This document shows, piece after piece, positions 1 to 21,144 of a DNA stretch of 64,000 bases. The DNA comes from Phycisphaeraceae bacterium D3-23 (lineage in GTDB: Bacteria; Planctomycetota; Phycisphaerae; Phycisphaerales; Phycisphaeraceae): positions 1,922,001 through 1,986,000 of the forward strand of contig CP114179.1 of the NCBI GenBank assembly GCA_039555135.1, read 5' to 3'. The position numbers and the translations under genes are program-made. The notes under the pieces are model-generated. The model saw only the letters and a program-made list of their open reading frames with translations, had not been told where the DNA came from and did not search any database. The first letter of the stretch is position 1. The number at the start of each line of letters is the position of its first letter.

Positions 1-1
1 G

Positions 2-988
2 CCTGTCGGCATGGGCATCATGGGCTTCCAGGACGCGCTCTTCATCCAGAAGCTCGCCTACAGCAGCGACGCCGCCATCCAGTTCGCCGACGAGTCGATG
101 GAGCACATCAGCTACCACGCGATCAGCGCCTCCATCGCGCTGGCCGAGGAACGCGGGACGTACTCGACCTACCAGGGCAGCAAGTGGGACCGCGGGATGC
201 TGCCGATCGACACGATCGCCGAGGTCGCCACGCACCGCGGCGAACAGTTCCTCGACCAGGACACGAGCTGCACGCTCGACTGGGCCCCGGTCCGCGAAGG
301 CCTCGCCAAGCACGGCATCCGAAACTCCAACGTCATGGCCATCGCCCCGACCGCGACGATCTCCAACATCGCCGGCAGCTTCCAGTCCATCGAGCCCACC
401 TACCGAAACCTCTTCGTCAAGTCCAACCTCTCGGGCGACTTCACCATCGTCAACGAGTACCTCATCCAGGACCTCAAGGACCGCGGGCTCTGGGACGACC
501 AGATGCTCGACGACCTCAAGCACTACGACGGCGGCGTGCAGCACATCGACCGCATCCCCGCCGACCTCAAAGAGCTCTACAAGACCGCGTTCGAGGTCGA
601 CCCCTTCGCGATGATCGAGTGCACCAGCCGACGCCAGAAGTGGATCGACATGGGCATCAGCTTCAACCTCTACATCGACACCCCCTCGGGCAAGATGCTC
701 AACGACATGTACATGGCCTGCTGGGAAAAGGGCCTCAAAACCACCTACTACCTCCGGTCGCTCGGCGCGACCCGGATCGAAAAATCCACCACCAGCGCCA
801 ACGGCAACACCTCGGCAAGACCGCCCAAGAAGCAGGCCCCATCCGATGTGATGGCCAACGACGCCGACGCCGCGCTCATCACCGCCCCGACGATCCAGGA
901 CGAATCGATCGACAAACTCCTCGACGGCAAACAAGCCGCCGACAACGCCTGCTCGATCGACAACCCCGACTGCGAGGCGTGTCAGTAA
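2..988 (+). CDS. nrdA: Ribonucleoside-diphosphate reductase, alpha subunit (class I), 5' partial
   Basis: This is the C-terminal 328 residues of the large, catalytic subunit that reduces ribonucleoside diphosphates to deoxy forms. The gene begins before the window; the frame is open from base 2. Visible family signatures are the PVGMGIMGFQDALF loop, the NSNVMAIAPTATISNIAGS segment, the adjacent tyrosines in KTTYYLRS that carry the radical, and a C-terminal cysteine pair (DCEACQ) that accepts electrons from thioredoxin or glutaredoxin. The small subunit lies 523 bp downstream on the same strand, with a repeat-flanked orphan gene in between. Assignment to the class I alpha subunit is secure. 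The active-site cysteines lie upstream, outside the window. Confidence 0.96.
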   Translation, partial: PVGMGIMGFQDALFIQKLAYSSDAAIQFADESMEHISYHAISASIALAEERGTYSTYQGSKWDRGMLPIDTIAEVATHRGEQFLDQDTSCTLDWAPVREGLAKHGIRNSNVMAIAPTATISNIAGSFQSIEPTYRNLFVKSNLSGDFTIVNEYLIQDLKDRGLWDDQMLDDLKHYDGGVQHIDRIPADLKELYKTAFEVDPFAMIECTSRRQKWIDMGISFNLYIDTPSGKMLNDMYMACWEKGLKTTYYLRSLGATRIEKSTTSANGNTSARPPKKQAPSDVMANDADAALITAPTIQDESIDKLLDGKQAADNACSIDNPDCEACQ

Positions 989-18433: not shown

Positions 18434-19015
18434 ATGTCACAGTCGATCGCTATAGCCAATTATTTCTTGACGCAGGATGGCAAGCTGAGGAAAAAGCACG
18501 ACCTGACTCCGATGAAACTTCTGAAACTTGTCTGGTTTGCACATGGATGGTGGATGGGCCTGCATCCGCACCCTGCTGCGGGAGGCGAAGAATCGTTTAC
18601 TGGTGCGCCTCTAGTAGGAGATGAAGTACCAGAATGTTGGCCTTGGGGCCCTGTCTTCTCAGTGCTTTATCGCTCAGCGAAACAGTACGGCAACAAACCG
18701 GTCGAAAAGTTACTAAAGCCATACAACTATGGTTTCGAGATCGATGACGAGCCTTCACCTGACTTAGACACAGCTTTTCCTTCTGCAACAGAGCAAAATC
18801 TAAGGCCGTTCCTTGATCAGATTTTTGCGCAGTACGGCCAATTCAGCGCATCTAAATTGTCCAACATGACCCATCTGCCTGGTACTCCATGGAAAGAAGT
18901 AGTAGATAAATACAAGGGTACACCACCTCGTAATATAGACATCCCTAATGATCTGATTTTCAAGTATTTCAAACGTATGGCAGATGCTGCCAAAGCGAGC
19001 CAACAAGGTGCTTGA
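18434..19015 (+). CDS. Panacea-domain (SocA-like, DUF4065) protein
   Basis: This 193-residue protein matches the Panacea domain found in SocA-like antitoxins and GepA-type proteins: an N-terminal IANYFL segment, then LTPMKLLKLVWFAHGWWMGL (about residues 26-45), the ALxGD-like GAPLVGDEVPECWPWGPV, and a C-terminal MTHLPGTPWKEVV. Panacea domains commonly act as antitoxin or proteolytic-adaptor modules in toxin-antitoxin and phage-defence loci. GC content is much lower than in flanking genes, which indicates acquisition. A small membrane protein begins 3 bp after its stop, so the two form an operon and that protein is the candidate partner. The pairing is inferred, not demonstrated. Confidence 0.8.
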   Translation: MSQSIAIANYFLTQDGKLRKKHDLTPMKLLKLVWFAHGWWMGLHPHPAAGGEESFTGAPLVGDEVPECWPWGPVFSVLYRSAKQYGNKPVEKLLKPYNYGFEIDDEPSPDLDTAFPSATEQNLRPFLDQIFAQYGQFSASKLSNMTHLPGTPWKEVVDKYKGTPPRNIDIPNDLIFKYFKRMADAAKASQQGA

Positions 19016-19018
19016 GTC

Positions 19019-19453
19019 ATGTATGGTGATGACCCGTCCACAACTTTTCCTATCAGTCCTTCGCCAGAAGAGATAAAGACCCCTTCGCAATAGGATGAGC
19101 AGACAAGGTATGGAAAACTTCGGTTTAAAATCGCCGAGGACCACGCCGCGATCGAAGCTCTACGGCATCAAGCCGTGAAATGGAACATCAATCTACGCCC
19201 GTGGTTTGCATGGATCATCACTTCAATCACACTTGCGTGGCTAGTTTTTGTGGTTACGATTTTCGTCATTGTTGCCAACGACACAGATCAGTCCAGAGTC
19301 AAAGTGTCTGATGCTGTATTGATCGCACTTATCACAACTGCAACCGCGACAGTGATTGGATTGTTTGTGATTCTCGCTCGTTATTTCTTCCCACCGGGCG
19401 GGTCACTCATCAGCGGTCGATTTGGATTACATTCGGAAGGTACTGACGAATAA
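19019..19453 (+). CDS. Small two-helix membrane protein, reading frame interrupted by an amber codon
   Basis: From the ATG at 19019, one frame runs to 19453 except for a TAG at 19091-19093. Before it the frame encodes 24 residues (ending IKTPSQ); after it, about 120 residues. The latter include a charged stretch (KLRFKIAEDHAAIEALRHQ) and two membrane helices (WFAWIITSITLAWLVFVVTI and VLIALITTATATVIGLFVIL). The layout resembles a widespread family of small hypothetical membrane proteins. The only start after the TAG is a GTG at 19175, which would lose the charged region. Options are a nonsense mutation, a sequence error (CAG or AAG to TAG), or initiation at 19175. It overlaps no other gene and follows the Panacea gene by 3 bp, suggesting a toxin or effector role that is unproven. 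Confidence 0.6.
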
Positions 19454-19563
19454 TCTAGGGACGGTCTCGCCGGGTGTCTAGGGCTGAGCTCGCGAAGTCT
19501 TGAGTCAGTAACACTCACCTGTGAAAAGCAACTACGTTCCGAGGAGCATCACGGAGCGAGGCC

Positions 19564-19957
19564 ATGCGAAAGAAGCCAGTCATAGAGATTGATGGAGCTA
19601 ACTTTAGCACCTTGGAAGAATGCGCGCGTGAATTCAGCCAAACCACGCTTTCTGATTTTGTTTGGACAGGCAATCTCGACGCTTTCAACGACATACTGCG
19701 GGGTGGGTTTGGTACACCCGAAGGCGGCTTCATCCTCCGCTGGTTAAATTCAGATACTTCCCGGGAGCGTCTGGGCTACGCAGAGACGGCCCGGCAGCTA
19801 GAACGCCGCCTCAAGGCGTGCCCGTGTTGCGGCCGAACTCAAAGCGGCAAAGAACAACACCGGCCCCACCGTGTTCGATTGGTTGGTGGAGATCATCCGG
19901 GTCCACGGCGAGGGCGGGGAAGAATCCGAAAATGCCATCGAACTCGAACTACGGTAG
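19564..19957 (+). pseudogene. Barstar-like ribonuclease inhibitor, frameshifted by a small deletion
   Basis: The N-terminal part (VIEIDGANFSTLEECAREFS, then DFVWTGNLDAFNDILRGGFG and ETARQLERRLKAC) and, in the next frame, the C-terminal part (RVAAELKAAKNNTGPTVFDW, then LVEIIRVHGEGG) match the barstar-like family. Family members usually read RLxxCHPSNR between the two halves; here the bases for roughly HPSNR are missing near 19817, which shifts the frame. The protein would bind and block a barnase/RNase-Sa-type nuclease or act as an orphan immunity protein. No nuclease gene is nearby. Lower GC than the core genome and its place in an island of small genes suggest a degraded acquired gene. Confidence 0.75.
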
Positions 19958-20070
19958 CGCGCCTCACTGCCGGCTGTCGAGGACAACGCTCGCCCTCAGC
20001 GCATGTAACACAATGCGAGTCGGACATTCCAAGCGATTCGACCGTTTGTGGGCCTTCATGGCGCTTCTGC

Positions 20071-20280
20071 GAACACTCCCGGCCCTCCCGTGCAGGTTCA
20101 TAAGCGTTCTATGAACGCTCGGGAATAGCTTGTGAACATTCACAAACCACCGGTGAACCCCCGGAAGTAGGCGGCGAACATTCGGGCGTCCCTTGTGAAC
20201 ATCCGGGGGAGGTCCGGGAAGATTCGGGGTAGGGGTGTGAAAACCCGTGCGCGGGGGGTGAAGGTCCGGGAAAGGGGGAA
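20071..20280. repeat. Degenerate 21-bp tandem repeat array
   Basis: Ten consecutive units keep an exact 21-bp period: 20071, 20092, 20113, 20134, 20155, 20176, 20197, 20218, 20239 and 20260. The best units begin GAACATTCGGG or close variants and are preceded by GT or GC; the remaining positions are variable but GC-rich. On the minus strand this reads as heptad units of the form xVHxxxP (for example NVHKLFP, SVHRTLM, GVHRWFV). The array lies directly upstream of the conserved hypothetical gene at 20377. Whether it is transcribed or translated is unknown. It is not a CRISPR array: there are no unique spacers. Confidence 0.75.
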
Positions 20281-20376
20281 ACATCTGCGAACGGGCGGGA
20301 CGCTGTCGCGGAGGGGGGCGGACGGCCGATTTTGTTGAAAGGTCGGGCGTCTTCTTTCCGCTTTGGAGATGACATC

Positions 20377-21144
20377 ATGCAGGACTATTTGCCGCACCGG
20401 GATCAAGAACTCGCGTCGTGGACACGGGGGATGGCGAAGGCCGTGTCTGCTTCGCCTGAAAGTTATGGCGTGACCGCAGCGCAGGCGGCGGCGTATGACG
20501 CGGCGCAGCGGGCGTATGCGGAGGCGTTGACGGTGGCGACGCAGCCGCAGACGCGGACGGGGCCGGCGGTGTCGCGGAAGAACACGGCGCGGAAGACGCT
20601 GATCGCCCTGTCGCGCCGGTTGGAGGGGATTATCCAGGCCTACCCCGGGACGACGGACGCGATGCGTGTGGACCTGGGGCTGACGGTGCGCAAGCCACGG
20701 GCGAAGATGGCGGCGGTGACGATCGAGCGGCCGTCGGTGCGGGTGGTGTCGGCGATGGGGTCGCGGCTGACGCTGCGGGTCGGCAAGCACGGGGGCGTGG
20801 GGCGCGCCCGGCCCGACGGGGCGCGGGGGTACACGTGGTTCTACTTCTTGGGCGAGCGGAGCCCGGCGGCGCTGGGGGGTTGGTCGTTCGGCGGCAATAG
20901 CATCGAGCCCACCGTCGAGGTGGTGCTGGAGGGTGCCGAGTTTGGCGCGCCGGTGTGGTTCACCGCCAACTGGTTTAACAGCCGGATGCAGCCGGGCCCG
21001 ATGAGCAACCCGGTCATGACCCGCGTGGCGGGCGGGTTTGCGGGGGTGGTGCCGAGCGCCGGGAGCGGAGGTAAAACGGTGGTCAGTGTTGTGGCGGGGA
21101 GTGCCCCCGGGACCACTGCGGATCCCATGGGCCTTGCGGCGTAG
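20377..21144 (+). CDS. Conserved hypothetical protein downstream of 21-bp array (255 aa)
   Basis: This 255-residue protein has no signal peptide. The start at 20377 was chosen over 20332 because GGAG lies a few bases upstream and the extra residues look random. The N-terminal half is helical and Ala-rich (about residues 10-100) and ends in a segment of the form RRLEGIIQAYPGTTDAMRVD followed by LGLTVRKP. The C-terminal half (about 120-245) is beta-rich, like an Ig or fibronectin III fold, with FTANWFNSRMQPGPMSNPV near its end. I recall similar two-part hypothetical proteins in Verrucomicrobia, Bacteroidota and Planctomycetota, some near similar repeats; this is memory, not a search. Function is unknown. 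Confidence 0.7.
   Translation: MQDYLPHRDQELASWTRGMAKAVSASPESYGVTAAQAAAYDAAQRAYAEALTVATQPQTRTGPAVSRKNTARKTLIALSRRLEGIIQAYPGTTDAMRVDLGLTVRKPRAKMAAVTIERPSVRVVSAMGSRLTLRVGKHGGVGRARPDGARGYTWFYFLGERSPAALGGWSFGGNSIEPTVEVVLEGAEFGAPVWFTANWFNSRMQPGPMSNPVMTRVAGGFAGVVPSAGSGGKTVVSVVAGSAPGTTADPMGLAA

Follow-up and report, generated by a model that had tools for sequence, protein, structure and literature searches.

The locus consists of a tandem array of short DNA units lying 5′ of a gene for a protein of two domains (Table 1), within the window (the whole 64,000-nucleotide stretch of DNA analysed here). Starting on the 5′ side, a SocA/Panacea gene (18434–19015) precedes a barstar-like gene that begins at 19564, just upstream of the array, and matches profile positions 3–75 of 96. 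The remainder of the latter gene seemingly continues in another frame, as judged by eye. These two genes beside the array (window 18434–19957) are an accessory island.

The units start at 20071, 20092 and so on to 20260, with a step of exactly 21 bp. Columns 1, 3 and 8 are G, A and C in all ten units and column 2 is A in nine; the remaining columns are mostly variable. GAAC occurs in phase at 20071, 20113, 20134, 20155, 20176 and 20197, and out of phase at 20289. Over 20059–20305 the identity at lag 21 is 115/226 (shuffle mean 59.9, z = 8.25) and at lag 42 it is 114/205 (z = 9.43), where z is relative to 1000 dinucleotide shuffles. The original prediction, made from the sequence alone, of at least ten units with an exact 21-bp step is thus confirmed. 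The array is the best lag-21 stretch of 200 bases in the 64 kb, with a value of 105 (runner-up 96, mean 65, sd 9.8). Tandem Repeats Finder has no entry at this position, even with a score of 30, and of the lags 20, 21, 22 and 42 it is lag 42 alone that lies above the array threshold of the survey described below. This is among the more degenerate arrays of its kind. In the spacer, GCCGA at 20325–20329 recalls the downstream half of a TNAAG-N15-GCCGA-like element of related loci; the pattern T(N)AA-N13-17-GCCGA is not matched at the window locus, the upstream half being absent.

The AlphaFold2 model of the protein has a helical N-terminal domain and an Fn3 sandwich, with a mean pLDDT of 86.5. 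The Fn3 topology is found with a VIA-align Z of about 11 and an rmsd of 2.1–2.4 over 93–99 residues (residues 112–220 of the model). Structure searches matched the Fn3 half only, and no shared overall fold was found. Modelled alone, the N-domain has a pLDDT of 92, and its comparison with the PDB, in which a known DNA-binding fold could still be missed, gave no match at E ≤ 0.001 (best E 2.0). The mean net charge of the N-domain in the family is 0 (sd 3.9, n = 57). Searches of Pfam, NCBIfam, PHROGs and PADLOC at E ≤ 1 gave no family for the window protein; it had been described at the outset as a two-domain orphan, and the model and these searches agree with this. Among the homologues, L153 has a sub-threshold match to SEN1_barrel (E 5e-4), and L103 has sub-threshold matches to DUF7474 (E 0.003) and to PHROG 31, tail fibre J (E 0.0016, in the Fn3 part).

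Table 1. Features of the window locus, and array units of other loci of the same genome
Feature	Position	Strand	Description
Array of ten 21-bp units	20071–20280	.	Consensus GAA(C)NNTTC-GGG-like; GAANNTTC is a dyad
Spacer between array and gene	20281–20376	+	96 bp
Gene of 255-aa orphan protein	20377–21144	+	ORF, homology and family searches
N-terminal helical domain	20377–20712	+	Residues 1–112; helices 9–25, 34–55, 62–88 and 94–99 (predicted structure)
C-terminal Fn3-fold domain	20713–21042	+	About residues 113–222 (predicted structure and fold match)
C-terminal tail	21043–21141	+	Mostly low model confidence, ends LAA (AlphaFold2)
Unit of L003			TACCC-N5-TTGGGT
Unit of L004			GAGCGCTC
Unit of L005			GCACTGATGCACAG
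Unit of L009			GGACGGGC...CCGGAAC
Unit of L010			42-bp
Unit of L002 and L007			One common unit

Copies of the locus and association of array with gene

A tblastn search of the own genome at E ≤ 1 gave 12 matches, comprising ten loci (one in two pieces) and one match of E 0.1 that was discarded. The nine other proteins are 25–40% identical to the window protein where aligned. An array of period 21 or 42, with a lag identity of 0.55 or more, lies upstream of the gene in nine of the ten; L006 falls just short at 0.543, and its orthologue in G019 has 0.581. The letters of these arrays mostly differ from locus to locus (Table 1). The 235 kb around the ten loci contain nine places with a lag-21/42 array, and 9/9 are upstream of a family gene. 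An orphan array of about 14 units is located at G000:C1:3440812–3441049 (L277), with the motif of L002 and L007 and a similar leader; the 3-kb locus around it yielded no family protein. The idea that an array is a decoy or copy of genomic sites elsewhere was rejected: all five matches to the L005 core lie in its own array, and of 11 matches to the L007 core eight lie in its own array and three in the orphan array at 3.44 Mb.

The family protein is present in 8/51 genomes of the taxonomic family and in 14/294 genomes of a phylum sample chosen with a completeness filter, the own genome included in both. Three Bacteroidales genomes have 19, 25 and 8 matches, fragments counted. In G334, G337 and G340 several contigs start within a family gene, which suggests that the assembly broke at near-identical copies. 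Named genomes, when scanned, yielded 76 loci. Most have titles in Planctomycetota, chiefly Phycisphaerae; the others are titled Acidobacteriota, Bacteroidales/Tannerella and, once each, delta proteobacterium, Cyanobacteria and Verrucomicrobiae. The titles of metagenome-assembled genomes can be wrong. PLSDB plasmids and INPHARED phages gave no tblastn match with the one query L107.

Arrays were called at a lag identity of at least 0.55 within 760 bases 5′ of the gene, after removal of hits lacking the N-terminus, of near-identical starts (159 reduced to 128) and of five regions with <500 nt upstream. By this measure 74 of 123 upstream regions, which include orthologues and hence are not independent, have an array, and these come from at least three phyla. 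The best lag is 21, 42 or 63 in 71 of the 74 and 20, 40 or 60 in three. In the matched downstream control an array was found in 8/105 regions, with no lag that is a multiple of 21 and a lag of 60 in one. Co-occurrence with homologues elsewhere had been proposed as a check, and it is observed in other phyla too: arrays are present in loci titled Planctomycetota, Acidobacteriota, Bacteroidota and delta proteobacterium, and absent from those titled Cyanobacteria and Verrucomicrobiae. Of 20 additional Bacteroidales copies, three of them already counted, 17 score at least 25; L231 (with 67 nt of upstream DNA only), L235 and L240 score below 25.

In a tree of 126 proteins (rows of 190–300 aa only) the array is present in 76 rows, weak in 11 and absent from 39. 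Sixteen Bacteroidales rows of this tree were labelled by hand, 15 of them as having an array, including L240 (score 23, threshold 25). The outcome named beforehand as a refutation, a lost period where related genomes retain the gene, is seen in places, and one clade of 16 rows (MADY[IL]PGPDA) is uniformly array-less. At lag 21, arrays occur in 57 of 128 upstream kilobases vs six arrays in 378 kb of flanks. The flanks of all loci have lag-21/42 arrays at eight further places, three of which belong to another family gene in the same locus; the other five (L088, L115, L125, L131 and L146) are 1.3–2.5 kb from the family gene, with no other family start.

Geometry, symmetry and turnover of the arrays

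The array is located upstream of the gene, with a period of 21 bp (rarely 20) and about ten units, and the unit is usually self-complementary with letters specific to the locus. When units were chained through the 21-bp arrays the step is 21 in 371 of 374 cases, 20 in three, and 18 or 24 in none. The spacing is equally exact for 42-bp units (98/98 steps), 20-bp units (8/8) and 40-bp units (9/9); the chaining penalised shifts, so small ones are possibly undercounted. The 81 arrays have a median length of 201 bp and end a median of 122 bp (range 0–828) before the start codon. The period is 20 or 40 in four of them. A spacing under constraint and a sequence free of it had been proposed from the window alone, and this holds across the loci: the period is kept and the letters differ. 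The further suggestion placed each GAAC on one face of the DNA, at two helical turns per unit; this motif is peculiar to the window locus. Strict phasing on one face is not universal, because arrays with a 20-bp unit lose register with the helix.

Of 67 arrays, 48 have a self-complementary consensus unit at p < 0.05 and 29 at p < 0.01 (column permutation), and 19 have no dyad at p < 0.05. At the best dyad axis there are 2997 Watson–Crick pairs vs a background of 1454, and the ratio of G.T to A.C mismatches is 1.18 vs 1.22 in the background. The array symmetry is strand-neutral and resembles that of DNA, because Watson–Crick pairs double while both kinds of mismatch fall alike. After a column shuffle that keeps the consensus the mean folding z is −0.71 on both strands, with z < −2 in 14/77 arrays on each strand and z > 2 in 1/77. 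Covariation within arrays is not general (mean z 0.23; >2 in 8/67 and <−2 in 4/67). In aligned arrays, changed dyad pairs are still complementary through compensated double changes in 88/547 cases vs 444/4786 at other axes, a comparison for which the p-value is only indicative since the array pairs are not independent. The units of L246 run one way and then as reverse complements.

Unit letters change rapidly. For proteins <50% identical, unit profiles show a constant similarity of about 0.29–0.32; above 70% identity the average is at least 0.80, and 21 of the 27 pairs there come from one clade of seven. The proteins of L003 and L005 are 76% identical and their units have a similarity of 0.29, so that the letters are unrelated and the period is retained; in L106 and L177 the N-domains are 79% identical and the unit similarity is 0.285. 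L105 and L177 (63% in N, 76% in C) have a common unit (0.96), as do L002 and L007 (0.83), which are 83% identical in N and 41% in C. N- and C-domains look to have been swapped between paralogues. The orthologues L006 and L037 differ by a gap of 42 nt (two units) within the array and by 114 nt between array and gene.

Promoter-like elements, RNA signals and genomic setting

The element T(N)AA-N13-17-GCCGA, mostly TNAAG-N15-GCCGA, is present in 37/126 upstream regions vs 5/218 controls, mostly at −92 to −157 relative to the homologue (e.g. L007, L177 and L179). The consensus for sigma-28 (FliA) is TAAA-N15-GCCGATAA, which the element resembles in sequence. Flagellins are encoded in 6/8 genomes checked, and the four flagellin upstream regions read have no match to the pattern. 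The promoter-like element lies between array and gene in many Phycisphaerae loci and is overlapped by the array in L105 and L177, and in some Bacteroidales the array may be downstream of the promoter. The Bacteroidales −7 box has the consensus TAnnTTTG. Such boxes are found 5′ of the array in 7/17 cases vs 0/17 on the other strand, 1/15 further upstream and 4/17 downstream. Sigma-70-like sites 5′ of arrays are not enriched (13/62 vs 14/62 on the other strand, 16/58 further upstream and 12/60 downstream).

At its gathering thresholds Rfam has no match in the arrays of 21 loci, and by this measure they are not a known structured RNA. Six of these loci gave no hits at all; the other 15 gave a tRNA (L057) and two Acido-Lenti-1 matches (L111), all outside the arrays. 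The latter lie upstream in opposite orientation, at 1–47 (+) and 134–180 (−) of this locus, which is titled delta proteobacterium. Array-less homologues (L112–L179) have a conserved leader at about −95 to −20 that appears hairpin-like by eye, with apparent compensating changes (GGCTTG/CAAGCC, GGCTCG/CGAGCC and GGTCCG/CGGGCC). Several of their genes have, again by eye, a hairpin resembling an intrinsic terminator on the 3′ side.

In G016, of the same genus, the interval from the DUF1501 gene (77% nucleotide identity) to the mla operon contains a sulfatase and a HEAT-like gene, and neither array nor family gene was matched in it. In G019 a 323-nt stretch of the C-terminal half of the gene is recognisable (81%), and the array was not found in the syntenic interval. 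Here and below the names DUF1501, mla operon, sulfatase, HEAT, prohead protease, helicase and tape measure were given by eye, with no family call. A GNAT-like gene is situated 3′ of the family gene in 17 loci (including L002, 2549–3682), at about +800 to +2200 from the start codon, and in 5/10 own-genome regions. Among the neighbours annotated it is the only conserved partner identified, and the three of its proteins that were examined match Pfam Acetyltransf_7 with scores under the cut-off. Three of five GNAT-like copies compared end in RLDAA; -AA is the usual ending among family proteins of that genome.

Three IMG/VR contigs (L177, L178 and L179) carry phage-like genes, L177 having a portal, a terminase and a DNA methylase. 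Each has an array-bearing homologue, the array being weakly scored in L178 and L179, and a second that is array-less. The two homologues are 3–4 kb apart in these contigs and in L113, and the intervening genes differ in the three contigs. In L178 and L179 the left phage-like reading frame runs into the array (ORF roles by eye). Phage-like ORFs look cut off at the array in these two, or just after the second homologue in L179. Eight loci of the L104–L143 clade have a common upstream ORF. The locus is accessory, with some copies in prophage-like contigs.

Interpretation of the array

Retention of side, period and usually symmetry, with free letters, suggests that an oligomer recognises the geometry or that specificity co-evolves rapidly. 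We favour, with a probability of about 0.4, a cis-acting DNA array that is read by its geometry, together with the neighbouring protein or a trans-acting factor. On this view an oligomeric protein would read mainly the geometry of evenly spaced dyads, set about two turns of DNA apart; the simplest candidate is the Fn3 protein encoded next to the array, or some factor recruited by it. The resulting nucleoprotein complex might control the neighbouring promoter, the handling of an accessory cassette, or both. Drift of the letters would follow if selection acts on spacing and symmetry only; alternatively, co-resident copies may be selected to stay apart, as in co-resident partition systems. Two observations rank DNA first: the strand-neutral symmetry, and a position relative to promoter-like sites (upstream, overlapping or perhaps downstream) that varies with lineage and fits DNA better than an mRNA leader. 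The unrelated letters within the pairs L003/L005 and L106/L177 argue against simple sequence-specific binding by the neighbouring protein. Counting against a geometric DNA element are the neutral charge of the N-domain and its failure to match the PDB, the 19 of 67 arrays with no dyad, the lack of general covariation, the 39 array-less and 11 weak cases among 126 homologues, and the arrays situated away from the gene.

A somewhat unlikely alternative is that the array is transcribed into an RNA of tandem hairpins, as an mRNA leader or a separate RNA, that is bound by the protein or regulates its gene. The unit dyads would yield short hairpins, the nearest quarter of the 81 arrays ends 0–55 nt 5′ of the start codon, Bacteroidales −7 boxes are found 5′ of arrays at the frequency given above, and L047 and L057 have good sigma-70-like sites there. 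But such sites are not enriched overall, the promoter-like element of many Phycisphaerae loci lies between array and gene, the arrays of the 21 loci have no Rfam match, and G.U is not preferred over A.C mismatches. Before correction, folding is lower for the sense strand than for the antisense in 48/77 arrays; after column-shuffle correction it is lower in 38/77, no better than antisense. RNA hairpins as the main selected feature are weakened by the strand neutrality. An array that marks one end of a mobile cassette, where recombination or insertion takes place, is unlikely; it would be recognised by an enzyme in trans as folded DNA in the manner of attC, with the Fn3 gene as cargo or accessory. 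This would suit the free sequence with symmetry, the patchy and multi-copy distribution, the absence of the locus from the G016 interval and the partial gene in G019, and the phage-like ORFs of L178 and L179 that run into a weakly scored array with a second, array-less homologue 3–4 kb on and differing cargo between. Against it, a recombinase was not noticed among ORFs read by eye, no target duplication or exact junction was established, and some copies keep their neighbours, as in the L104–L143 clade.

Two further explanations fare worse. An array with no function of its own, formed by slippage and unit turnover at a locus near a promoter, is very unlikely; the letters do turn over rapidly and units are gained or lost, but the period and side shared by several phyla, the far lower frequency of arrays elsewhere in the same DNA and the dyad symmetry are not expected of neutral slippage. 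The original prediction offered as its alternative a coding heptad repeat (xVHxxxP) on the minus strand, for which the chance is now almost nil. Minus-strand ORFs do span the window array, 21 bp is seven codons, and open frames are slightly above expectation (2.96 vs 2.23 of six). As a general explanation it is rejected by the 4/81 arrays of period 20 or 40 bp, which are not multiples of three, by the lack of 18- or 24-bp steps, and by 8/73 arrays with no open frame in any of the six.

The locus may be compared with known systems. REP/BIME palindromes with RAYT transposases form arrays of small palindromes beside a gene and are spread genome-wide, as here, but in the present family the letters vary by locus and no HUH enzyme was found in the fold searches. 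CRISPR also places a repeat array beside a protein gene. The arrays described here consist instead of contiguous degenerate 21-bp units, alike within an array and with no spacers, and so do not have the alternation of repeat and spacer; moreover, no PADLOC model matched the four proteins scanned (three of the family and one GNAT-like). As working analogies, iteron or centromere arrays and integron attC sites are the nearest. ParR–parC and the iterons of plasmid Rep proteins similarly have short tandem direct repeats beside the gene of a small protein, and work on Clostridium perfringens plasmids describes ParR families in which co-resident copies have differing repeat letters (PMC9426499), as seen here. 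They differ in that no conserved ParM/ParA- or Rep-like partner was recognised among the partly annotated neighbours, that the protein has an Fn3 domain and no known DNA-binding fold was found, and that one query gave no PLSDB plasmid match. Integron attC sites are palindromic with little sequence conservation, and structural recognition independent of sequence has been proposed for them (PMC2727003). The usually self-complementary units and, in the IMG/VR contigs, the variable cargo recall these sites and cassettes; the differences are the many 21-bp units per locus, their position upstream of the gene, and the lack of an integrase noticed among the ORFs read beside the loci. For an attC-type feature, consensus dyads occur in 48/67 arrays, covariation within arrays is not general and the folding z is modest.

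A wider proposal is possible and is made tentatively, at odds well below even: that these loci form a cross-phylum class in which phased self-complementary units of 20–21 bp, selected for period and symmetry and not for sequence, are read by a helical-bundle/Fn3 family with up to 25 matches per genome, on islands and prophages. No description of such arrays or loci was found in open-licence PMC papers, a set that excludes subscription journals and preprints. The view that this is a candidate for an undescribed system is supported in that no described family was found for the protein. The joint spread of array and protein family across phyla, the lack of any family for the window protein at E ≤ 1 and the missing Rfam match for the arrays of 21 loci together strongly suggest a functional pair not described before. 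If spacing and symmetry are what is read, the locus would lend itself naturally to tests of how DNA or RNA is recognised without regard to sequence, and the differing arrays within one genome make specificity directly testable in vitro. If the proposal is true, bacteria would keep an address that is written in geometry and not in letters.
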